Assembly (NCBI GenBank): GCA_019054805.1
Contig: JAHQIY010000013.1
Span: forward strand, 3,038,001-3,102,000
DNA length: 64,000 bases
DNA from: Brachionus manjavacas
Lineage: Eukaryota > Rotifera > Eurotatoria > Ploima > Brachionidae
Direction of reading: 5' to 3'
Part shown: one piece after another, positions 14,487-62,494 of the stretch
Layout of the letters: every line of letters starts with the position of its first letter
Position numbering within the stretch: the stretch's first letter is position 1
The notes under the pieces: generated by a model
Seen by the model: the letters and a program-made list of their open reading frames with translations, nothing else
Database searches by the model: none
What the model was told of the DNA's origin: nothing
Program-made: the position numbers and the translations under genes

Positions 14487-24461
<9,975 letters not shown>

Positions 24462-25558: not shown

Positions 25559-26180
25559 TACAGTACTGCTACGATAAACTGTTTTTACGAAATTTTACGT
25601 AAATTTACGTGAAATTAATAAAGTAAAAAAAAGTAAATTTCAGAAAAATTACGAAAAATAAAGTAATTTTACGAAAATTTTAGTAAATATACAGTCCCGT
25701 TCTGTTCACTTGTTTTTACCAAAATTTACGTAATTTTACGTAAATTTGCGTAAATTTACGTAAAATTACGTAAAATTACGTAAATTGACAAATGTAAAAA
25801 ATGGTAATTTTACGAAAAATTACGTAAATTTACGTAAAATTACGTAAAATTACGTAAATTTTGGTAAAATCAAAAAGGGACAGAAAAGTTATGATTTTTT
25901 GAAAAAAAGGTTACAATTCTGCTTTTTCATCGACTTTCTACTTTTTACCATGTAAATAAAAATTTACGTAAATTTACGTAAAATTTAGTAAATTTTTTTA
26001 TTTTTTAATGTAAAATTTTGTAAATTTACGTAATTTTACGTAAATTTACGTAAATTTTTAACATTTTTAGGATTTCAGGAAAAAAACGTATTTTTTTTAA
26101 TTTTTATTTAAATATTTACAAATTTTGAAAAACAATTTAATTGGAATAAAGTTTTAGAAAGAATAGTTAAATTTAGTTTG

Positions 26181-27305
26181 TTTTTTTTGAGCTCTTGTCC
26201 ATCTTAAAGCTATTAGCTGCCTTCTCCCAAGCTTCTTTAAACGTCGAGTTTTTTGGCACATATTTTTGTAATTCGTCTTTTTATAATTGTTCTAAATTTC
26301 AATTCTGAACTTTAAAAAATAAAATTACTTTTTATCTCGAGCATACTATTAGGATAGGTTTTCTGGTAATGTCCCAAAGTTTGACCAGGATCGTCCTTAA
26401 ATCTTTTAGTAATTAAGCCTCTTAATGAGTTAGTAAAATCTTTATTGCTCGCTTTGAAGAAAAAAATTAAGATAAAAGTTTATTTATTATTCAAATACAT
26501 TTACTTATAGAATCATTTCCAACAAAATTCTGATCCTCAAAGTCACTATTATCATCACTTGATTTTGAACTCGAACTTTTATTTTTTTCTAAGGAGCTGT
26601 TTTCAACTAAAACATTTTTAATTTCTCTATTTTGGCTCATAATCTCTTTTATGCTTGAGTTCAAATTTTGCAAATTTTCATTTAATTGCAATAAGGCTCT
26701 ATCAAGCGGGACAGTTCCTAAATTTCCTTTTAGTTTGCCTGTCTTAAAAATAAATTAAATAAAGAGATAATATATAATACACCTTAAAATATAAATCTTT
26801 ACTTTATTTTTAGGTACTAAGAAAATTTTATTTGATTGTACAGAAGCCTCGACAATTAAATGATTATTTTCGATTTCGTGTACAAATTTTACCATAGCAC
26901 CTTTAACAAACTTAAAAAATAAGATAAAAAACTTCATTTTACTCTCCTGAAAAATGGGTAGCCATTTTTTCACACAGTATTTTACTGCTGTTGAGTTTTA
27001 AATAAAATTAAATAATTTTTTCACATCATGGTGGTACCATTCACCATTTTTCAGAAGCAGTTCAGTATTTTAGAATCCAACTTCTTGTGTGTCTGTAGGC
27101 TCAATTATTTTTTCTAAAGAAATGCTCCCCGGAACTTGATGAAGATGATGAAATGGATGCTTATTATTCGGAATAAAATATTCAATTGCTACCATTTTAA
27201 CATCTTCATCCTTCATTTTTTTTTTACGGCAAACTCAACATCGGATTCGGCTTCTGACGCCTCGCTAACTACTTTTTTTTTTGAATTTTTTCTTTTCGAA
27301 GCCAT
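26181..27305 (-). pseudogene. Second gene of the inner Tc1 element, probably degraded
   Basis: The minus strand starts ATGGCTTCGAAAAG at 27305 and encodes a basic/acidic N terminus (MASKRKNSKKKVV). Next comes an AIEYFIPNNKHPFHH-like stretch, a segment ending KWLPIFQE, and a beta-rich segment (GAMVKFVHEIENNHLIVEAS, about 26930-26812). A coiled/serine-rich part follows (26745-26510), then an SNKDFTNSLRGLITKRFKD block (about 26455-26340). A final exon of about 25 codons ends in TAA near 26181. Several junctions have good GT-AG signals. A ten-A run near 27220 puts the first segment out of frame and a TAA near 27080 interrupts it, so this copy may be dead. The C-terminal block faintly resembles a BEN domain, but I cannot establish that. 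Confidence 0.4.
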
Positions 27306-27379
27306 AATTTTTTTTGACTAAATTTTTTTTAAAATCTAAGAAAGTTGTTTTAAACTAAAGATCTCTTATTTAAACATGA

Positions 27380-27678
27380 CAGCTGTTGAATTAGGAGTTA
27401 TAGTATTTTTTTTTGATCAATTAAAAGCTCAGCAATTTCATTCTCTTATTTAATTTCATTTTTCATCATTCATCTCGTTTTTTGTAAATTTAAGCTTAAT
27501 TCATATTCATTAAGAATCATTCATCTCGTTTTTTGTAAATTTAAGCTTAATTCATATTCATTAAGCTTAAATTTACAAAAAACGAGATGAATGATTAAAA
27601 ATGAAATTAAATAAGAGAATGAAATTGCTGAGCTTTTAAGTGATCAAAAAAAACACTGTACTCCTAATTCAACAGCTG
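27380..27678. repeat. Near-perfect 300-bp palindrome
   Basis: The left arm beginning CAGCTGTTGAATTAGGAGT is mirrored at the right end. Arms of about 120-150 bp match with a few mismatches (shared AAAAGCTCAGCAATTTCATT and TTCATCTCGTTTTTTGTAAA). The left arm also has a 51-bp tandem duplication (27465-27514 and 27516-27565). It lies between the divergent start codons of the two genes of the inner Tc1 element. It could be a foldback MITE inserted there (CAGCTG on both sides could be a target duplication) or an integral divergent promoter/cruciform. Confidence 0.8.
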
Positions 27679-27792
27679 TTTTCATTTTGAGACAAATGAA
27701 ACAAATTTATAAAATCACGTTTTATAAAAAGTGATTTCTAATAAGTCTATATAAAAGCTAACACACAGTGAAAAAGGATCAACTAAAGAAAA

Positions 27793-29372
27793 ATGAAATT
27801 AAATAAAAATAATATTTTACAGCAAAGAAAAAAAAGTTTTCAAACTGGGAAAAAAAAACAAATTTTTAATAGACAAATTTTATATCTTGCAAAAAGGAAA
27901 AAATATTCTACCAAAAAAATAAGACGAGTATTTAAACTTTCTTATTCTAAAAGACAAGTTCCATCGATAACTGTAAAGATTTTAAAATTTTTATTCGTCG
28001 ACTGTATCACAAGGAAAAAAATCCAATTTTTTTTTTTCGTGTTCAAATTTGATTTGATTTATTTGTGTTCTAAGAAACAAAATTTTTATCAAAAAAATTC
28101 TTTTGCTACAGGAGTCTTTTAATCTTTGCTCATGAAGTCTTTTTTTTTAAAAAAAAACAACTAATGAAATCAAATTAATTTTTTAAAATAGAATAGTCGT
28201 GAGCAAATTTTATTTCCAATATTGTCGTCTGAATTTAAACTTTTCTCTTTTCTTTTAGTTTATTAAAAGGACCATTAAAAAAAATGGTAAAAAGTGTTTA
28301 AGAAAAGAAAGAAAAACTTTGATGGATAAAAATGTTATTAATTTCATTAAGGTAAGATAAAAAAATCGTTTATTATTTCTATTTTTTTTATCAAGAAAAA
28401 ATCTTTGGAAAATTTCGGATGTGTATCTTCTGTCGAATTAGCTTTTAAAATTGAAAAAGAGTTAGGAGTGAAAATTAGTAGTAGTAATATTCGAAGACAT
28501 CGTTTTAAATTAGGTATCTTAAATCTATTTAAAAAACTCATAAAAAATATTTTAATAAATTAAAGGTTTAAGATACCGTCGTTTGCGAAAATCGCCTAAT
28601 TTAACAGACTCACATAAGCTGGAAAGACTTGTCTGGTGTCTTAAAAATAAAAATACCGATTTTTCAAGATACATTTTTGTAGATGAGACAACAATTAGAG
28701 TTTTTGATAGGCCATTGTATCATGTTAGATATCCAACCAAGTATCCAAAATCATTACCATGTTCTTCAAAATTTGAAGCTAAATTAAATATTTGGGGAGG
28801 AATTTCAGTTCAAGGAGCTACAGAATTCGCAGTAAACAAGACATTTTTTTATATATTTTTTAGTTAATTATTAAAAGATTTTTAGTCAAAATATGGATTC
28901 TGAACTTTACAGGGAAATTTTGGCCGATTTATTACTCCCTTTTGGGGCTTTGAGATATGATTTTAATTTTAAACTTCATCAAGACAATGACCCAAAACAT
29001 ACATCCACTGTATGCAAAATGTTTTTAGAGAGAAACGGGGTGCTTTGGGTAAAACAAAACCTCTTTTTTTATTTCTTTTTTTTTTAAATTTTTTCAGGTT
29101 AAGTCTCCGTCAAAATCGCCTGATTTAAACCCTATAGAGATGATATGGAGTGAATTGAAAAATTATGTGAGGAAAAGAAATATAAAAACCATCGAAGAAG
29201 CTGTTGAGTCAATTCGATCTTTTCAAAAAAATTTAACCCCGGAACACTGTGTAAAATATATTAACAATTTGAAAAAAGTAAGTAATATTAATTGAGAGAA
29301 AGAAAATTTAAAATTTTGTAATAGACCATTAAGATTGTCATTGAAAATAATGGTGAATGGTCGAACCACTGA
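27793..29372 (+). CDS. Tc1/mariner DD34E transposase, seven exons, 351 aa
   Basis: Exons: 27793-27972, 28259-28351, 28396-28513, 28566-28831, 28878-29048, 29098-29277 and 29325-29372. All introns are GT-AG, and the sum is 1056 nt or 352 codons with the stop, the usual Tc1 transposase length. The N terminus is basic and helix-turn-helix-like (KKYSTKKIRRVFKLS). The catalytic triad is complete: Asp in YIFVDETT, Asp in KLHQDNDPKHTS, Glu in SPDLNPIEMIW. Thirty-four residues separate the second Asp from the Glu, counted across the spliced junction. GGI and WSELKNYV segments are also present. It cuts and reinserts the element at TA sites. Six introns are unusual, as most Tc1 genes have none or one. 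The start is the first ATG in frame after the palindrome. Catalytic exons are very well supported; exon 1 is less certain. Confidence 0.85.
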
Positions 29373-30119
29373 AATAATATTATTTTTAATTAAAACTAAT
29401 TTGTAAATAATACCATGATTTTGTTTTAAAAAATAGCGTAAAATTTGTATATTCATATATTTTTTAATAAAAATTAAAAATAATTTTAATAAAAAATTAA
29501 CTTTTTTCTAGATTATCCTAAAAAAGTTAAAAATTTACGTAAATTTTTATTTACATGGTAAAAAGTAGAAAGTCGATGAAAAAGCAGAATTGTAACCTTT
29601 TTTTCAAAAAATCATAACTTTTCTGTCCCTTTTTGATTTTACCAAAATTTACGTAATTTTACGTAATTTTACGTAAATTTACGTAATTTTTCGTAAAATT
29701 ACCATTTTTTACATTTGTCAATTTACGTAATTTTACGTAAATTTGCGTAAATTTACGTAAAATTACGTAAATTTTGGTAAAAACAAGTGAACAGAACGGG
29801 ACTGTAAAAAGGACCAAAAAAAACTCAAAAATGGCGATTTTTAGGAATTTTTCTTTTTTTTTTGAAAATTAAAATGAAAATAAAAAAAAATAAAAAATTT
29901 TACGTAATTTTTTATTTTATTAAATGGGAAAATGGTAAATTTTAGTAAATTGTAGTAAAAAAACGAGAAAAAAAATTATCAAAAAAAAACACAACTACAA
30001 TGCAATTACTAATGGTTCGACCAGTCACCGTTTTTCTCAATGACTATTTTAATTACCTAAGAATTAATATCTGTTGAATATCTTTTTTACTAAATAATAT
30101 CTTCTTTAAGTGATCAATA

Positions 30120-44199: not shown

Positions 44200-44867
44200 T
44201 AAATTGATTCTTAACTCTGAAGTCATTTTGTTGAATAAATTCATAAAAATTCATTTATTGTTTTATTTTGAAACAGAAATTTTCAAAATTGTCAATTTTA
44301 GGCTATTTTTTAAATTAGTGACATGTCATTATATTATTTTTGAAAGCAAGTGTTGGATACATAATGACATGTCACTGTATATGCTGTGACATGTTGTTAA
44401 AATCAAGATTATACGTAATCAATGGAATACTCGATTAAACTCAGAGTTATAGAATAAAAAGAGTAAACAAAAACAAAAATGTCATATTATTTTAATTAAT
44501 TAATTGTTTGTTTTTGGAACAACTATTTTACTAGGAATGTTTTTGAGTCAATTAAAAAAATTACTTTTTAATAATGACACAAATTTTCTTAAAAAAAAAT
44601 TAGTGCGAGCAAAATTTAATCTCTGCAACCGATTTTAGATTGATTTTCCATTGCCTATTTCAATGATGGTATGCAAACTTACTCAACAAATACGGCGAGA
44701 CTCAGAGTTATCTCTAGAATTTCTTATTTGTTTTTATTTTTTCTTATAATTGATTTTTTTTTGTCATTATTTTAATTGACATAAGATTAATTTATCATTT
44801 GATTTTTTTTTACAAGATTTTTTAAATTAGCAATAAATCTATTTACTAAATAGATTTATTATCTAAT
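44200..44867. other. Spacer with GTGACATGTCA inverted motifs
   Basis: At 44320-44336 and 44363-44380, GTGACATGTCATTAT and ATAATGACATGTCAC form an inverted pair. The same core recurs in the foldback at 55597-55693. No gene. The region may include 5' DNA of the hAT remnant that follows. Confidence 0.4.
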
Positions 44868-45251
44868 TTGAATAGACTAAGTCAACCTAATAATTCATCA
44901 AATATCTTGATTTCTCCTTCTCTAGAAGACAAACGTTTACAGTATTTTGATTTTACTGCAGATTATGAAACCAAAAAAAGCTATTCAAAATTAAGTAATT
45001 TAGAAAAGGAATTCTATCGCTATAATTTAGAAGCTTCTAAAAACATTGAGCCTTTGGAATTTTGGAGGATTAACAAACATATTTATCCTATTATTTATGA
45101 AGCCTTTATACGGATTTTTTGCACGCCAGCAACTTCAGTCCCTTCAGAACAATTATTTTCCAGTGCCGGTTACAGCATTTGGGATCGTCGTAATAAAATT
45201 AACCCAGAAAATGTCAGAAAAGTTGTTTTTGTCTGTCAAAATTTAAAATGA
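44868..45251 (+). pseudogene. hAT transposase C-terminal dimerisation domain
   Basis: The open plus-strand 127-codon stretch ends with the hATC signature. Its segments are LEFWRINKHIYPIIYEAF, FCTPATSVPSEQLFSSAGYS and WDRRNKINPENVRKVVFVC. The RNase-H-like catalytic core and BED finger are not found upstream, so it is a remnant, unless upstream exons are too diverged to see. The domain itself shows no breaks. Confidence 0.8.
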
Positions 45252-45925: not shown

Positions 45926-46136
45926 ATTTTTTTTGAATCCAGACTAAATTTGGTTGCATCAGCTGACACATTTAACTAAACGCAAAGAATAAAAATGTAA
46001 CAAAATTTTTTGTGTTTTTATTTTATTAAAATACATTTTTTTCTGTTTTTTTTTCAATTTTTAAAAATTATTCAACTTTTAATTTCGAATAAAAAATGTG
46101 ATAAATTTTTTTCATATTTTTTCAATTTTTTCCTAG

Positions 46137-47581
46137 TGAACAACGATCAGTATGCTAAGTACGAGTCGCCATTGGGCTCGCGATACGCCAGCAAAGAAAT
46201 GCTGGAATTGTTCAGCAGTTTTAAACGCATCAGAACTTGGCGTCTCCTCTGGTTGTATTTGGCCAAGGCAGAAAAATCTCTCGGTCTTAACATAACCGAT
46301 GAGCAAGTCGAACAAATGGAACAAAACTTGGACAACATTGACTTTGATTTTGCTCAACAAGAAGAGAGACTGATTCGGCATGACGTAATGGCTCATGTGC
46401 ACACATTCGCCAAGTGCTGTCCAAAAGCAGGGCCGATAATTCACCTGGGCGCCACTTCATGCTACGTCACCGACAATGCCGATCTGATCATCGTCAAACA
46501 GGGCTTTCAATTTCTCCTGACCAAGCTGGCGTCGTCCATCAACTCGTTGAGCAATTTTTGCCTCAAGTACAAAGACTTGCCATGTCTTGGCTACACTCAT
46601 CTTCAGCCGGCTCAGCTGACCACTGTGGGAAAAAGAGCAAGTCTCTGGCTCCAGGACTTGTGCTTTGACTTCGAAAGCATTGAGAGTGCAATGAACAAGC
46701 TTAGATTCCGAGGCGTCAAAGGAACCACTGGAACCCAGGCTAGTTTCATGGAATTGTTCAGCAACGACCACCAAAAAGTCAAAAGCCTCGACCAACTTGT
46801 GACCCAAATGGCCGGCTTTCAACATTCCCTAATGCTTAGTGGACAGACCTATACTAGAAAAATGGACATTGACATTCTTGGCGTTCTGAGCTCATTTGGC
46901 GCCACTGTTCACAAAATATGCACTGACATCAGACTGCTGGCTAGTTTTAAGGAGCTAGAGGAGCCGTTCGAGAAGCAACAAGTGGGATCTAGTGCCATGC
47001 CGTACAAACGCAACCCGATGCGCAGTGAACGAGCCTGCTCTCTAGCCAGACACTTGATGATGTTGGTGAACGATGCTCTGGCCACTTATTCTGTCCAGTG
47101 GATGGAGAGGACCCTGGACGATTCGGCCATTAGGCGAATATCACTGTCCGAGGGTTTTTTGTGCGCCGATGCGTGTGTGATCATACTGGAGAATATTTTC
47201 CAAGGTATGGTTGTCTATCCAAAGGTGATCGAGAGTCGGATAGGCCAAGAGTTGCCGTTCATGGCCACAGAGAATGTTCTCATGGAAATGGTCAAGAGTG
47301 GTGGCGCTGACCGTCAAGAATGTCATGAGAGAATTCGTGTGCTGTCCCAAGAAGCAGGAAAAAATGTTAAACTAGAAGGCTTGAGCAACAATTTGATAGA
47401 ATTGATCAAAAGTGATGATTATTTTAGGCCAATTCATAGCAAAATAGATACTATGCTGGATGCCAAAAAGTTTATTGGAAGGGCTGATGTTCAAGTTGAA
47501 GAGTTTGTCAGCCAAGTTGTTAAGCCAATTTTGGATAAGTACAAAGATTTCAATTTTAATCAGTCTCAATTGTTGATTTAG
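46137..47581 (+). CDS. ADSL: Adenylosuccinate lyase (main exon)
   Basis: The exon encodes 481 residues, near the human length of 484. It shows the fumarase/ASL superfamily signature [14 protein letters not shown] containing the catalytic serine loop. [23 protein letters not shown] and [14 protein letters not shown] supply substrate and catalytic His positions; [11 protein letters not shown] follows. The enzyme cleaves SAICAR and adenylosuccinate, releasing fumarate, in purine synthesis and the purine nucleotide cycle. A TTTTTCCTAG acceptor precedes the first base. In frame, the exon begins with TG, so a preceding exon ending in A would create the ATG across the splice, giving [14 protein letters not shown]. 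That 5' exon was not located with confidence. Codon use and GC are higher than the surroundings, as expected for a conserved gene. Confidence 0.95.
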
Positions 47582-50289: not shown

Positions 50290-53200
50290 TCACATAATCA
50301 TACAAGCTCTTGAAGCATTTTCTCTGGCTTGATTGTTCAGCTCTTCTATTTGTTGTTTATCCATGCCTCGATAAAACAATTTATCGTAAAGATCTCTGTC
50401 ATCTAATATTGGATTAGCGTCATCAGGAAAGTTGTCATTATCATTTTTTTCCAAATCATTCTGTTTATCTGTTTGCATGTATATTCTAACCACATAACTT
50501 CCTGGTCGATCTCTTTTGAAACAACAAGGAAAAATGACATAATCACCAGGCGGGATATTCAGTCGCAACGAAACCTCCTTTTGATATTTGAAAACTTTTG
50601 TATAATTAAATAATTTTAAGTACGATTTATCATATCTTCCTTCAGTGTCAACCTGCGCACCTTGGCAAATAGCATAAATATAAAAACCAATTGCTTCGTG
50701 CATTCCTACAAATTGTCCTTGAGTCTGGAATCTTTTTTTGCTAATACCCTCTTGACCTATAGAAACAAGAATAGACAAATTTGAATCCTTAATGCTGAAC
50801 TGATGCTGAGGATTTGTCCATAAAGTTTCCTCATTACCAGATCCTCCGGCGTTTTTGCCAACTATCCAATCCCCTTTGAACATTTTCATCTCCCAATGTA
50901 TATCACCATAGTTTCCTTCATTAGACAAACCATTCATGTTCACATGACAAATGCTCAGAAAGTCCATGTTTTCAATAAAATCCTCGAAGCATATAAGAAA
51001 TTGTCCGTCTTCTTGAAATTCTGGATTAATTTTTTTTTTCACTTCTTCTCCAACTTTATTCCATTCTGCAGTGCCTTTGCTCCAGGCACCATTGAAATTG
51101 TTATTTTTGCCAAATGGACTTCTCAGTCTTTTGAGAAAAAATTAATTTTTTTTTTAAATAAAAAGATATTTTTAAATTTTGTATGCTATTAGATTAATTT
51201 TTTCAAAAATCTAAAATTCAAAAACTCTTTTGATCAAATTTTTTGCCCAGAAGTATCACCTATTCATCAGCTTGTCAAATGATGCACAAATTAAAGTTAA
51301 AATTATACCTGTCACGCTTCTCAAAAGTAAGACGCTTCAAATATCAAGGAAGCAATATCGAAAAGGGTTTCTGTGAATTTTTTCTATGAAAAGATCGTCG
51401 CCCGAGTTTATGTTAAACCGGTTTCATTTGGCAGCAAAGAAAAAATGATTATCATTATAAAAGCAGTCTCAAAAGATTAAATAAACTCTTTACCCTAAAA
51501 CCCTATTTATCCTTTATTTAGATAAATTATATATATTTTTTTTTTGAATATAATTTTTTCTGAAGGAGCATTGGCTCGATCAGAATTCTTTACTAATAAA
51601 TAAATAAATAAAACGGAATCAAAACCAAAAGCATTAGGTAATCTTTACAAATCCTTGATAGGATCAATCTTGGATTATTCTTTTCCTTGTTTTAATTCCT
51701 TCTTTGAAACAAACATTAAAAAATACAAGTTATTCAGGGCCTAGATAGAATCGAAGTTTTAAGTTGAGTGAGGAATATGTCAGGACAGGACTGAATCATT
51801 CTGATCCATAATTTTTTTTTATTTTCCTGAACTATCAAATATTTAAAACAAATATGTCTAGCCTCTAGCGATTTCAGTACATGGCTTTTAATTTTCTTTA
51901 TATTTTATTCTGAAAGAGAATTAGCTCGGTAAATCAATCTGCCTGATTAGATTTCGAAAATGAAGTAAAACAATATGCACCTTGCTTTTTTAAACATTCA
52001 TCGGGATTAAGTTTTATCTTTAGTAAATAATTTTTTTTTGCCAATTTAAATCAGGCCTGTGCAAAAGTCATAAATAAAGTCATTTTTCATTTTTCATAAA
52101 ATAAGATCAGTGCGGTCAAAATCACGTCCAAATTTATTTTTTGCCGTTCCAGTCAATTTTTGTGGCGGTCTTTTTTAAGTCAGAGTCTTTGAAATGATTT
52201 TTTTAAATAAAATTTTTACTTACTTTTCAAGTAATGAAGTAAAAACAAGTAAAATAAATAAGTAAAAAAGAAAGTATAATATTACATACATAAATATAAA
52301 TAATGATTTCCTAACTCCTAACCCCATGTTAAAATTTGAAATATAATTAGGCAATTATTTCTAAAAATGTAAAATAGAAAAAAAAACTAAGTAACTTTTT
52401 TCAAAAAGTTTAAAATTAGTTCTGTGAATGTGTTATTGCCCAAGTCTTGACACCTCTCTACAAAATAAAATTTATTTGCATACTTTGAGCTTGGTGCAGC
52501 TGATACGCACGTTGTAGCTAGTATTTAAACCACTACATTATTGTTACAATTTCGGATTCCATTAAATAAACTTTTGACTAAATTAAATTGTTTTATTTAT
52601 TTCTTGGCTTAAATCCCTAAAGTCCCTAAAATACGAGACTTTACAAAGATACAAATAATTGAGACAGACAGAACTAAACATATAATCCAAAATCCAAAAA
52701 AAAAATTTTTTAAGTATTGCAGAAAAATTATTTAAAATCTAAAAAATATGAATATGGTTAATTTGCATACAAAAATTCTAATACATAATTTAAACTCTAA
52801 TACTAAAAAAGAATATGGATTTTTTCTTTATGTTTTAAAAGGTAAAACAAACAAAGTTTTAGTTAATAGAAAAAATTTAAATAAATATTCGCCAATAAAT
52901 TGATGAAATTTGCAAAAAAAATTCTAATTAAAATAGATTACTTGAATTTAATAATATTTCCCTGTTAGTTAACAAATTAATTTTTATGTTGTTGCATCAT
53001 CAAAGTAAAAAAAATAAATCTTGTTAATTAAAATTTAAATGAAAAAGAATTTTAGTTTTGTAATTTCAGCAAGGTCTGCATGAAAATTCCCAATGAAAAA
53101 TGTAAAATTATTTACATTTTGCCGTATGCCTCAGAAATTCATTAGGAAAAAATACTTGCTATAAAATAGTAGTAAAATTAGAAAAAAAAATTTAGCTACC

Positions 53201-54065
53201 TTAACAATCTAATTGAGTTTGAGGCTGTTTTTTTCGAGCCTATCTCTCTAATTTGGTTGTAAACGCCGTCGCTTTCAATAAGCTCGAACACATTTATGAT
53301 ACTATAGGCCATACTGATAACCAGACCATTTGGTAATACTGCTCCAATGCCATAGCCATTCTTGGTAACAATGGTGCCAATGGATAGCGAGCCATAGCTA
53401 CTTGTCTTGTACAGAATTTCCCACAATCTATTCGGGTCAAAGAACGTGTCTGTTGCGGCCGATGCACGGCTAAAGCTCAGATTGTACACTTCATTTACTC
53501 CACCGGTGAAATCAACCAGAGCATCGTGTGGATAGCCTACGATCAAAAACTCGTAGCAAATGTTCAATTTGGCATAGGCCTTTTCAAATAAGGGTCCATA
53601 CATTTCGTTTTTTTCCACCAGATTTTTGCAGAAAATCAGCTTATTGCTTTCATCAACAGGCAAATAGTCGTCCACGACCACATCCAACCATTCACCGTTC
53701 ACCCAGAACTTAAAATGGAATATTCCTGCATAGTCCGGCTCATCGAATGTCTGCTTTGTGGGTATTGTTCTTTCAATTAGCTCAGGCGAGCTCAATACAC
53801 AAGAGCCAGCAGCTATCATCCAGCAATCGCCCACTTTTCCCTGGTCCAAGTCGTTGGGCTCAATTTTGTTCACTATAAACTTTGGCTCCTGCACTATTTC
53901 GTGGGCTCTTTTCCAGTAGACTTGTTTTCCTAAAAAATTTTTAAACCTAAAAATGCTCGAGTCATCGGCCGCGAATTTGTCGTCCACAAACAACTCGCCT
54001 GAACTCTTCGCCTTTGATTTCAAGCTTTCATAATCCTGGTCTAAAAAAGATTTTGTTTGTGACAT
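50290..54065 (-). CDS. Calpain-like protein, probable pseudoprotease with C-terminal CAAX box
   Basis: Two exons, 54065-53200 and 51127-50290, total 1704 nt, giving 567 aa. Residues 80-290 match the calpain protease domain: QGKVGDCWMIAAGSCVLSSP retains the catalytic Cys, and DALVDFTGGVNE is present. Where calpains have the catalytic His (GHAYS) this reads ISMAYS, so His is Met. Where they have Asn (LRNPWG) it reads LRSPFG, so Asn is Ser. Proteolysis should therefore be lost or crippled. DGQFLICFEDFIENMDFLSIC leads into the C2-like domain III. There is no penta-EF-hand; instead the protein ends ASRACMIM, a CaaX motif predicted for farnesylation. ATG at 54063-54065 is the first in frame after an upstream AG. 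The 2.07-kb intron holds LINE and R1 pieces. The two catalytic losses are directly readable. Confidence 0.88.
51540..51940 (+). mobile_element. LINE family A fragments inside the calpain intron
   Basis: 51540-51610 carries a 3' end (TTCTGAAGGAGCATTGGCTCG then AAATAAATAAATAAA tail). 51620-51760 encodes ALGNLYKSLIGSILDYSFPC, as in the RT copy at 62924-63439. 51890-51935 is a second 3' end (CTGAAAGAGAATTAGCTCGG). They are at least two overlapping fragments, plus strand, antisense to calpain. Confidence 0.6.
52431..52686 (+). repeat. R1 repeat (copy b)
   Basis: 215 bp starting TGTTATTGCCCAAGTCTTGA and ending GAGACTTTACA, plus the same 41-bp extension as copy a. About 95% similar to copy a by eye. 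Inside the calpain intron. Confidence 0.7.
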
Positions 54066-54385
54066 TCTCAACTACTGTTTAATTAATTTGAATTTGAATT
54101 TTTCGTTTAAAATTAGCTTTATATCTTAATTTATGTTTCCATAGAAGGCTTTTTTTAATAAACTTGTCAGAACACGTTTTGACGTAAAGGTTGCTATGAT
54201 TTTTTTGATTTTTTTGTAGACTTTGCTTGTTTCCCAGTCGAAATTCTGCCAGTCAATCCAGGTACAAACATGGGAGTATTTTCTCTTTTTTTTTATTAAT
54301 AAAATACTTTTTATATCCAGCACTGATTTGCTGATATCTGATAATATTTTAGCTAAAAAACACTATTTACGTTAAAGAATGTAAT

Positions 54386-57521: not shown

Positions 57522-59826
57522 TGTAACAGTAAAATTCCTTAACACGTAAATTTCTAAATTTACTGGTCCATCAGTAAATATGTAAAATGAATATAAAAAA
57601 AATTATGTTTTGTTTTTTTACTAGTAATTTTGTAAATTTACTTTTCAATCAGTTATTATGTAAAACAGTTTTTATTGCTTCAGTAATTAACTGAAACTAA
57701 TTTCAGTAAAAAACTAAAACTTTTTCAGTAAATTTTCTGAATTTGTAATTTGAAAAATAAAAAATGAATTTATCAATACTTTTGGTTATTTTTGCCATGG
57801 TTCTAGACCTGGCAACTAATTCTCAACCCGAAATTTTAAATGTTGATCAAGAACGCATGCACAGAGAAAAGTTTTATTCAGCATTCGAAGCGTTTACGAT
57901 CGAAGAAAGCCTCAAAAATCCCGATAAAAAGAAAAAAAACTCGGACGATTACATCGGCGACTGAATATCAAGCTTTAATTCTCAAAATCGAATCTGCACT
58001 AGAGAAAAAAACAAAGAAAAACTCCTGAAGAATATTATTTTCTAAACCAATATGAAATTTTAGTTTTTGGCGATATTAAAAAAATAATAAAAAAAAGGAA
58101 AAACCAGGACGAACCGATTAGATTTCTCGTTCCTTGGGACCAAATTTTTGAAACGATTTATCGTATCCACGATCAAATCGGACACAAAGCACGTGATATT
58201 ATGATAAAAAAATGTAACGAAAATCACTTAAACATAACAGTTGACATGATCGTAAGTAAGTTATGAAAAAATTTACCTGTAAAAATAAAAATGTGTCAAT
58301 TAATTAATTAAATTTTAAGTTTTCATCAATACATGTGAGCAATGTATTATGAATAAAAAAAGAAGCAAGACCACTGGTGTAGTTGTAAAGCCTATTCTCT
58401 CAAATAATTTTAATAGCCGTGCTCAAATGGATTTAATTGATATGCAAACGTTACCGGACGGTGATTTCAAGTGGCTTTTAGTTTACCAAGATCATCTAAC
58501 TAAATTCATCTTGTTACGAGCACTCAAAGCTAAATCGGCAATTGAAGTTGTAAATGCACTCTTCGACATTTTCACATTGATTGGTATTCCAATGATTTTG
58601 CAATCTGATAATGGTCGTGAATTTCGAAACCAAATAGTTGAAGCGTTAAAATCAATGTGGCCAGATATTAAATTTGTACATGGCCGAGCTAGACATCCTC
58701 AGTCTCAAGGTAGCGTAGAAAGAGCCAACGCGGACATAAAAAAAATGCTTGCTACTTGGATGCGAGAAAATAAATCGACCAAAAAGTCGACTGGAATTAA
58801 ATTTGTCCAACTAAAAAAAAATCATTCATTCCATTCAGGGATAAAATGAAGTCCCTATAAAGCTGTTTTTGGCGTTGAAACACCACTCGGCTTAAGTTCC
58901 ACAAGTATACCTGCTGAAGAATGGGGCAAATTGGATTCAGCTTAGCAGTTGTTTGATTTAGTTGGTTACGAGTACGACTCCTCCGAAATCCTGGAAGATG
59001 AAGACGAAGGCCATGATGACATATTTGACCCGAATGAATTTCAACTCGACAACCTAAACGAGCCATCAAATGATCCTCCTATTGAAGATATTATCGATAA
59101 AGTTAATTCGATATTGGGAATAAGAAATAATGTTCGTGAAAATCAACAAAAACAAGCAAAAAAAATGATGACAAGAAGTAAGAAATATATCCCAGAAGCT
59201 TATATTGGAGACATTGTTGTTTTGCCCATACCAGAAGTTGATAAAGGTCTCACTGAAGCTCCGAATTTGGTCTGTCGAATAGTTGACATTGACTTTGATA
59301 AGTCATTATATGAATTAGCTTGTGAAGCTGGAGTGCTTAATACTCTGTTTGCAAGAAACAGCTTTGACTTGGTAAAAGATTGTTCTATAGAGCTAAATTT
59401 AAAACTAGACAAAGCTTTAAGTGTGAGGCAAACAGTAAATGAATTATCAATTGGTGGTGGTCAAGGCATGGTAAAGTGCAACTGTACTGGTCAATGTATG
59501 ACAAATCGATGTGGTTGTAAAAAGTCGCAGTTGTTATGTAACTCAAGATGTCATGGAGGCAATTCAAGCTGCAAAAACAAATAAGCTTTTTTTTTATTAG
59601 ACTAATTAAATAAATTACTATAACTTAAAGAGATGAATATTTGTTTTTTTATATTATGAAAATCTACGTTTCATTTCAGTAATTTACTAAACTAGTTTCA
59701 GTAAATTACTGAAAAAATTAAAAAATCAGTAAATAACTAAAATTTATTAATTTTTTTATGTTTTACATATTTACTGATGGACCAGTAAATTTACAAATTT
59801 ACGTGTTTTAAAAATTTACGGTAACA
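57522..59826 (+). mobile_element. Ginger/KRBA2-type DNA transposon, 2.3 kb
   Basis: The ends TGTAACAGTAAAATTCC and TGTTACCGTAAATTTTT (inward) begin inverted repeats of about 66 bp. Their inner 45 bp (AACACGTAAATTT, TTACTGGTCCATCAGTAAA) are nearly identical. TATA lies outside both ends, a plausible 4-bp target duplication in an AT-rich spot. Subterminal DNA has multiple CAGTAAATTACTGA-like motifs on both sides. It encodes one integrase-type transposase, now broken. Confidence 0.82.
57764..59584 (+). pseudogene. Integrase-type transposase of the Ginger/KRBA2 group
   Basis: In order, there is an N-terminal helical part (57764-58080) and an HHCC zinc domain split by an intron near 58255-58318 (RIHDQIGHKARD..., then FINTCEQC). 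The rve core follows, with Asp in QMDLIDMQ, Asp in LQSDNGREF and Glu in HPQSQGSVERAN. A spacer domain leads to a Cys-rich tail with GCKKSQLLCNSRCHGG, stopping at 59584. This layout is that of Ginger transposons and of the domesticated KRBA2/SCAND3-type proteins. Breaks: frameshifts in A-runs near 57930 and 58010-58020, TGA at 58847-58849 where a Cys is usual, and TAG near 58943. The catalytic triad is intact but the gene is not. Confidence 0.85.
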
Positions 59827-60902: not shown

Positions 60903-62225
60903 CTAACAAGACGAACAAAAACTTTTGGCCAAATAGAGAGCATTTTTTCTAAATCTCTTGTTGACAAAAGAGTAAAAGAGTGGATTAAGCACATAGTTTA
61001 GTAGGTACACATTTTTGAGGATTTTGGTGAGTAGAAAGTTGTGGCGTTGAGCGTCGAGGCCGAGCAATTTGTGCAGCCAAAAGGGCGTCCATGTGAACAC
61101 AATGACGAGTATGGTGAGCGCGAGCACTGTGGCAGTCTTGGTGTGCTTGTACTTGCGGCTGGTGTGTCTGCGAATCGAGATGGCCTTGACATTCTGCGAC
61201 GAGTTTTGGGCCGAGCTGGCCATCTGGTTCTCGGAGAACTTTCTAAGCCGCTTGGCCAAATGGTCCACTCTGCGGCTGGGGCCGAACGCACTCCTCAAAT
61301 CTACGGGACACGAAACGCGTCTCTTGTACAAAATTTTGCTCTGCACCGCCACCGGCTTGTGCTCGGCGCGCTGAGTGCGCAACGTGCGGTAAATGTGCTT
61401 GTAGACGCGTATGTAACACGTGACTATGCAAGATAGGTTGACCACGAACACAGCGAGCAAAAACGTCTCATAGACTTTCTGGGCGAACGGTTGTTTTGTT
61501 GTGCAAGTGGAGTTGGACGCGTCCGAGTCGACTAGGAACAGGTGGGGCGACGAGATGAGGCACGCGAGCACAAGCGACGACATGGTCAAGATTATGAATT
61601 TGTTCTTGTCGAAAAAATAGGAATCAATAGACCTGAAGACGCTGGAGTAGCGGTCGAGAGCGATCAGCGACACAATTTCGAGCTCTAGCACAATGGGCAC
61701 CTGGTAGAGAAAGTGGCCGAGGGGACACAAGACCGAGAGGAGACTGTGCTCCAAGGTGATGAGTGAGCGGAGCGGCCGTGACTGGTACACTAGACTGACG
61801 GGCATGTTTACTACACAAATGAACAGATCGCACACGGCCAACACCAGGATAAAATAGGAGCACAGAGTGCGCCGGTAAATGTACACATTTTGGCTCGGAA
61901 ACAAACACTCGGTGTACTCGTCGTTTCGATTGTTGGCCATTGACTTGGGCACGCTGAGCATTGTTTCGGTGAGGCGGCGTCGAAACTTCGACTGGGTCTG
62001 GTGACACTCTGGCCGCGATTCTTTCACGTCGCTCACGGCTTTTGGTTTGTACGCGCAAAGCTTTCGATTGCGGAAATTGCGAAAGCCCGCCTTGTACGTC
62101 AATATGACCACAAAATTGACGCCCGAACTGATCGAGATGATCAACAGGGCCACTATGGTGTACGAGTCGACAATGTCCGACGAGTGCACTGGCCGCCACT
62201 TTGTCTCATTGTTTGCTTGATTCAT
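60903..62225 (-). CDS. Class A (rhodopsin-like) G-protein-coupled receptor
   Basis: A single exon of 440 aa from the ATG at 62225. An in-frame ATG at 62270 adds 15 residues; I prefer the second because it gives MNQANNETKW with an N-glycosylation site. Seven hydrophobic spans are visible. TM1 is SYTIVALLIISISSGVNFVV and TM2 is FILVLAVCDLFICVVNMPV. TM3 has LEIVSLIALDRY (DRY motif) after the conserved Cys. TM4 and TM5 follow, TM6 has VFTWTPFWLHKLL (CWxP variant), and TM7 has LNYVLNPLFYSF (NPxxY variant). A Cys in extracellular loop 2 (SNSTCTTKQ) can pair with the TM3 Cys. Intracellular loop 1 is about 75 residues, far above the usual 5-10, and loop 3 is about 90. The ligand is unknown; the TM6/TM7 pattern suits a peptide or amine receptor. 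GC content is clearly higher than the surrounding DNA. Confidence 0.88.
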   Translation of the reverse strand: MNQANNETKWRPVHSSDIVDSYTIVALLIISISSGVNFVVILTYKAGFRNFRNRKLCAYKPKAVSDVKESRPECHQTQSKFRRRLTETMLSVPKSMANNRNDEYTECLFPSQNVYIYRRTLCSYFILVLAVCDLFICVVNMPVSLVYQSRPLRSLITLEHSLLSVLCPLGHFLYQVPIVLELEIVSLIALDRYSSVFRSIDSYFFDKNKFIILTMSSLVLACLISSPHLFLVDSDASNSTCTTKQPFAQKVYETFLLAVFVVNLSCIVTCYIRVYKHIYRTLRTQRAEHKPVAVQSKILYKRRVSCPVDLRSAFGPSRRVDHLAKRLRKFSENQMASSAQNSSQNVKAISIRRHTSRKYKHTKTATVLALTILVIVFTWTPFWLHKLLGLDAQRHNFLLTKILKNVYLLNYVLNPLFYSFVNKRFRKNALYLAKSFCSSC

Positions 62226-62494
62226 GACTCGACGAAGGCTTAAAATGCATACTCTAAACAAATCGCGCACACAAATTTTATTTAATTTTTTAATAAAATT
62301 TTTTAATAATTTTTTTTAATATTTTTTTTGATTTTTTAGTGAAAGAAAAAATGTGAAAAATATGCTGATGATACAATAGTCAACTATTTTATTTAGTCCT
62401 TATTTCTAGTTGTTGTTCATTTTTTTAATACACACTGGCTCAAGAAAACGGGAGTTTTGAGGCTCTGGACTTTTAGATTTTATTTTTTTTATTT
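62226..62494. other. GPCR upstream region
   Basis: AT-rich; contains the receptor's promoter side. No motif stands out. Confidence 0.3.

Follow-up and report, generated by a model that had tools for sequence, protein, structure and literature searches.

A Tc1-type transposon of the rotifer Brachionus manjavacas with a head-to-head second gene that may encode an accessory factor

Background

A clan of Tc1-type elements in the rotifer Brachionus manjavacas carries a transposase gene together with a second gene, here called gene B, and this pair is an old, integral unit of the clan. The copy described in this paper is a 4113-bp element in a 64,000-nucleotide stretch of DNA (NCBI GenBank assembly GCA_019054805.1, contig JAHQIY010000013.1, positions 3,038,001 to 3,102,000 of the forward strand); "the window" refers to that whole stretch, in which all positions are given. 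Tc1/mariner elements are the textbook transposons that need one protein alone, and the usual Tc1 element consists of one transposase gene in 1-2 kb. We consider it probable that the rotifer elements form a two-gene Tc1 lineage with an old head-to-head pair in which gene B supplies an accessory factor. Gene B was absent from an initial annotation of the element, made from the sequence alone, which described the ends, the transposase and its introns.

Results

Structure of the two genes

The spliced transposase model is 1056 nt long (351 codons and a stop) and has seven exons separated by six GT...AG introns (Table 1), just as the initial annotation had read it. The predicted protein carries the catalytic triad D170, D255 and E290, that is DD34E, with 34 residues from the second D to the E. 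It matches Pfam DDE_3 at 57.6 bits (cut-off 28.6); for HTH_Tnp_Tc3_2 the score is 28.5 bits (E 1.8e-6), short of that model's cut-off of 31.5. Sleeping Beauty is the sole relative of solved structure found by sequence at E up to 0.001 (E 2.5e-19). The window element is a member of the Tc1 (DD34E) group of IS630/Tc1/mariner, the assignment made earlier. Two distant transposase relatives elsewhere in the genome, L020 (C32:511959-512639) and L021 (C35:298005-298688), have long open frames (433 and 536 aa) and read IGKTTL, in place of VDETTI, around the first catalytic Asp; they are possibly domesticated.

Gene B has five exons on the minus strand (27305-26173, approximately 1.1 kb) in the left half of the element and is divergent from the transposase gene, so that the two gene starts face each other with 487 bases between them. 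The border of exon 3 at 26505 was set by hand to the donor of the model for another copy, C26 (see below); the automatic border was 26499. The predicted protein is basic (pI 9.2) and about 266 aa in length, as taken from the C26 copy, in which the N-terminal 36 and the C-terminal 74 residues are basic. Gene B had no credible domain match in Pfam and none among PDB sequences (best E 0.54, a designed protein), in NCBIfam (best 0.008, with one of eight members) or in PHROGs (best 0.021). A BEN- or DUF4806-like identity was considered and set aside, as Pfam lent it no support.

Table 1. Positions of the element and its parts in the window
Feature	Position	Strand	Basis
Tc1-type element, 4113 bp	25692..29804	.	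TA-flanked, inverted-repeat ends, copy comparison
TA target duplication, left	25690..25691	.	empty-site comparison
TA target duplication, right	29805..29806	.	empty-site comparison
Left terminal inverted repeat with phased TTACGTAA sites	25692..25975	+	end comparison
Right terminal inverted repeat with phased TTACGTAA sites	29531..29804	-	end comparison
Gene B exon 1, frame shifted here by shorter A-run	27082..27305	-	gene model, copy comparison
Gene B exon 2	26803..26910	-	gene model
Gene B exon 3, predicted coiled-coil-like and Ser-rich acidic stretch (by eye)	26505..26742	-	gene model
Gene B exon 4	26329..26451	-	gene model
Gene B exon 5 with stop	26173..26276	-	gene model
Foldback, 108-nt arms at 94%, between both gene starts	27407..27653	.	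repeat search
Transposase exon 1	27793..27972	+	gene model
Transposase exon 2	28259..28351	+	gene model
Transposase exon 3	28396..28513	+	gene model
Transposase exon 4, catalytic D170	28566..28831	+	gene model, triad alignment
Transposase exon 5, catalytic D255	28878..29048	+	gene model, triad alignment
Transposase exon 6, catalytic E290	29098..29277	+	gene model, triad alignment
Transposase exon 7 with stop	29325..29372	+	gene model

Pairing of gene B with the transposase

A protein search with gene B found relatives adjoining relatives of the transposase. Among the matches listed, 150 of 160 for the transposase and 149 of 154 for gene B could be counted and formed at least 93 transposase and at least 103 gene B clusters; a gene B lay within 3 kb of 22 of the 93, where 0.67 would be expected by chance, and 21 of these 22 adjacent pairs were divergent. 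TA-ended inverted repeats enclose the head-to-head pair in subfamily A, to which the window element and the C26 and C12 copies belong. The same divergent arrangement recurs inside such repeats in subfamily B (C12:2780621-2784405, with ends of 292 nt) and in subfamily C (C7:5056389-5059921, with ends of 486 nt). In subfamily C one alignment placed the last transposase exon past the right end, across a 724-nt intron; this was taken as an aligner artefact.

Between subfamilies both genes look constrained at the level of sequence, with pN of 0.24-0.45 against pS of 0.56-0.80. Amino-acid divergence of the transposase and of gene B is correlated (0.93 over 45 pairs, which are non-independent), and trees built from 21 transposase rows and 14 rows of gene B give matching subfamily groups, with the deep branches left open in both.

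Deletion derivatives of these elements also occur, namely L077 (C6:6483830-6485700), L078 and L076 (C31:422292-423062), of which L077 and L076 retain 3' parts of both genes. The types that they represent retain either gene B exons with the 3' end of the transposase or no more than the final exons of the two genes. Many dispersed matches to the final exon of gene B suggest that a miniature form has multiplied.

Intron positions

An intron was scored as shared if it lay within two codons of the window position and in the same phase, and the counts (25 transposase and 15 gene B loci) include near-identical copies of subfamily A. The transposase intron positions 61, 92, 131, 220, 277 and 337 are kept in 10/12, 12/17, 17/21, 18/24, 18/21 and 16/19 of the loci that span them, and the four gene B positions in 12/13, 12/15, 10/13 and 8/10. 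In a splice-signal control, run with flat splice scores and with the subfamily A copies left out, GT-AG put 49 of the 52 transposase introns, from nine loci, and 14 of the 15 in gene B, from four loci, at window positions and phases, although the reference positions derive from GT-AG models and so carry some bias towards that pair. Six other dinucleotide pairs gave 17, 13, 0, 0, 0 and 0 for the transposase and 5, 5, 0, 0, 0 and 0 for gene B; those with non-zero counts have one true signal in common with GT-AG, which was the top-scoring pair at all nine transposase and all four gene B loci. Near-identical copies also vary less in their exons than in their introns (Fisher p 0.009 and 0.011 in the two comparisons that involve the C12 copy; 0.12 for the window against C26), a contrast computed with one gene B exon end 6 bases off.

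Intron positions and phases are thus common to subfamilies that differ by 40-55% in protein, and copy-specific insertion, an outcome that the initial annotation had named as fatal to its own reading, is rejected. The comparison strongly supports an ancestral origin for the introns of both genes. That annotation had suggested a lineage that acquired introns; the lineage is indeed intron-rich, but the acquisition was neither this copy's own nor recent. Two degenerate relatives, L069 and L060, seemed short of some gene B introns, an idea that was dropped when intron-like DNA was found to remain in the cases examined.

Ends and target site

The window element starts CAGTCCCGTTC and finishes GAACGGGACTG, and the borders first proposed for it, each next to a TA, are exact. 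Its ends, already described as nearly identical, match at 97% over 251 nt without gaps and at 95.8% over 286 nt with gaps, TA counted in. TA stands at both borders in 4 of 4 copies, and paralogous empty sites have one TA fewer than the filled site (5 of 5 inspected). When the flanks were fused without the element, the junction was crossed by at least 39 rows elsewhere in the genome, among 57 rows listed. The flanking sequence (25560-25691 and 29807 onward) is the end of a related family with TACAGTACTGCTACGATA ends; TACAGTACTGCTACGATA, at window position 25560, is also the start of the ends of L077, and the window element therefore jumped into a relative. The foldback between the gene starts is confined to the three full subfamily A copies, the intergenic stretches of other subfamilies being far shorter.

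Arrays of TTACGTAA in the ends

The short sequence TTACGTAA occurs 33 times in the window, where base composition predicts 2.7. Twenty of these occurrences are in the two ends of the element and none in the interior from 26100 to 29500; the element as a whole has 23, none in its middle. In five elements from three subfamilies every TTACGTAA is within 500 bp of an end, and the middle is free of it in all five. The spacing is often 10 bp in subfamilies A and B; for subfamily C it is 20, 30 or 44. Three TTACGTAA at 10-bp steps were found 84 times genome-wide, as against 0 for the reversed pattern used as a control. The 50 array matches listed fall in 28 places: 12 close to a listed gene of the clan, 2 within the family that received the window insertion, 9 at end-like matches and 5 at no known feature. 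The class of end-like matches is partly circular, because TTACGTAA contributes to them. Arrays with 10-bp spacing and no listed clan gene near are, for example, at C2:7905197, C12:128120, C13:1486015, C7:4787566 and C8:4647597.

Copies and recent activity

Two further full copies are present, at C26:330862-334950 and C12:1665643-1669729, with 98.5% and 96.7% identity over the main alignment. A remnant at C11:624266-625852 has lost the right half, and its match opens at window position 27273, so the start of gene B is missing; C13:1370003-1370382 consists of both element ends and nothing else. Over 3548 aligned interior bases, 6 substitutions and 7 indels separate the window element from the C26 copy; for the C12 copy the figures are 25 substitutions and 12 indels over 3524.

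The initial annotation had called the element recently inserted on the likeness of its ends. For a DNA transposon that likeness is no clock of insertion, and we rejected it as such on logic and in view of the interior divergence between copies. Recent activity is nevertheless indicated, by the low interior divergence and not by the ends, and by the existence of the two other full copies. The description of this copy as apparently intact holds for its transposase, which is open, and fails for gene B, in which a run of A is 10 bases long in the window. The run has 14 bases in both C26 and C12 and 13 in the remnant on C11; the shorter run of the window shifts the frame near the gene start and may be an assembly error. 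Of the three full copies, only that in the window has an open transposase and only that on C26 a gene B free of stops and frameshifts. The C26 transposase has a premature stop, the C12 copy has a frameshifted transposase and a stop in gene B, and in none of the three are both frames open together.

Discussion

Comparison with known systems

The window element has the TA target, inverted repeats and DDE_3-containing DD34E transposase of about 350 aa that are found in Tc1, Sleeping Beauty and Intruder. In contrast to the animal Tc1-like elements compared here it is larger, at 4.1 kb, and has two genes with six and four introns. Of those elements, Intruder is given as 1.5-1.7 kb with a single open reading frame (ORF) (PMC7731502), and Minos as having one small intron of 60 bp (PMC2874221).

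Among ciliates, TBE and Tec are Tc1/mariner elements in which a DD34E transposase is accompanied by extra ORFs, among them a zinc finger protein in TBE and a site-specific recombinase in Tec; Tec has ends of approximately 700 bp and one ORF in the complement (PMC7325037). Gene B, in contrast, has no zinc finger or recombinase domain in Pfam, and the likeness to TBE and Tec is drawn from their descriptions. The Paramecium elements Anchois, Sardine, Thon and Tennessee combine a DDE transposase of the IS630/Tc1 group with hypothetical ORFs; Sardine has a DD35E transposase and a tyrosine recombinase, Sardine and Thon have ends with internal palindromes, and the ends of Anchois are about 22 nt (PMC3464196). 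Compared by description, these resemble the window element in having a transposase plus an extra ORF, whereas the window transposase is DD34E and its ends are longer than those of Anchois. The ciliate elements TBE, Tec and Anchois are the nearest precedents found.

In the open PubMed Central literature, which leaves most subscription papers and Repbase outside, no conserved second gene was recognised in any animal Tc1 element. If gene B is a cofactor, the rotifer clan would be, within the literature found, the first two-protein Tc1 system outside ciliates. PIF/Harbinger and En/Spm elements encode a transposase and a separate DNA-binding accessory protein, and En/Spm has arrays of short subterminal sites; their transposases and target sites are unrelated to those of the window element, and the resemblance is by analogy alone. 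The window element also differs from PIF/Harbinger in duplicating TA and not 3 bp, and in having a Tc1-type DDE_3 transposase and not a PIF-type one.

A role for gene B

It is likely that gene B serves the element. Since the intron positions of both genes are common to distant relatives in the genome, the comparison suggests that the product of gene B aids the persistence or movement of the element. The transposase would be made from an mRNA that needs removal of six spliceosomal introns and would cut and paste the element at TA; the TA duplication is observed, and cutting is what is expected of this family. The product of the second gene would be an accessory factor, most likely DNA-binding or architectural. 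By analogy with TnpA of En/Spm, it might act at the phased TTACGTAA sites of the long ends, where it would build or regulate a synaptic complex. That gene B acts by binding the TTACGTAA arrays is a tentative proposal, and we hold with similar reserve that it could be an obligatory or strongly stimulating cofactor on helically phased arrays, making this a two-component Tc1 clan in an animal. The motif resembles the site of PAR-type bZIP factors, and the arrays may therefore be bound by a host factor instead.

Several observations weigh against an accessory role. Gene B has no recognised domain in Pfam, PDB, NCBIfam or PHROGs, and the predicted fold of one piece of it was poor (mean pLDDT 46.9) and was not used. 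TTACGTAA arrays are also found away from listed genes of the clan. One of the 22 adjacent pairs is tandem, and for 71 of the 93 transposase clusters no gene B at a distance of 3 kb or less is among the matches listed, a count that is not decisive because many of the matches are fragments; intact relatives carrying the transposase alone may exist. The between-subfamily ratios (0.12-0.46 where defined) are rough because dS is close to saturation, and within subfamilies the ratios spread from 0.27 to 1.28, as for decaying copies.

We give a smaller but appreciable weight to the alternative that gene B is a passenger, selected for a task other than transposition (for example to counteract silencing by the host or to control the element), or else a host gene captured long ago. 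No domain of gene B points to a role in transposition, and the C11 remnant and L077-type derivatives hold much of gene B and little transposase. On the other hand, the start of gene B is gone from the C11 remnant, where retention need not mean function, and gene B accompanies the transposase across the sampled subfamilies and diverges in step with it. It is very unlikely that the gene models are pseudogenes with unspliced introns: all relatives inspected, other than the transposase of the window and gene B of C26, have a stop, frameshift or truncation (within the limits of the aligner), but the constraint between subfamilies, the exon/intron contrast and the splice-signal control speak for genes. 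The picture drawn by the initial annotation, an ordinary one-gene Tc1 copy that recently acquired introns, has six real-looking introns and an open frame in its favour and is scarcely credible given the second gene and the intron positions and phases that recur in diverged subfamilies. Just as improbable is an origin of gene B from another transposon nested within this one; nesting is real on the outside, where the element sits in the end of a related family, but repeat searches of the three full copies found no ends belonging to gene B itself, and other subfamilies have the same arrangement.

If gene B is indeed an accessory factor, an animal clan with a constrained second gene in fixed order would mean that Tc1/mariner elements can evolve two-component control. 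It is also unusual for a selfish element that ten intron positions are shared, kept and not lost across subfamilies, and splicing may therefore limit where or when the proteins are made.

Neighbouring genes

Elsewhere in the window, Pfam matches identify genes for adenylosuccinate lyase (46001-47581), calpain (50290-54071) and a rhodopsin-type receptor (60903-62315). Other transposable elements are represented by a reverse transcriptase (18396-19298), an integrase-like region (rve, under the cut-off; 58319-58849) and a hAT dimerisation region (44850-45251).

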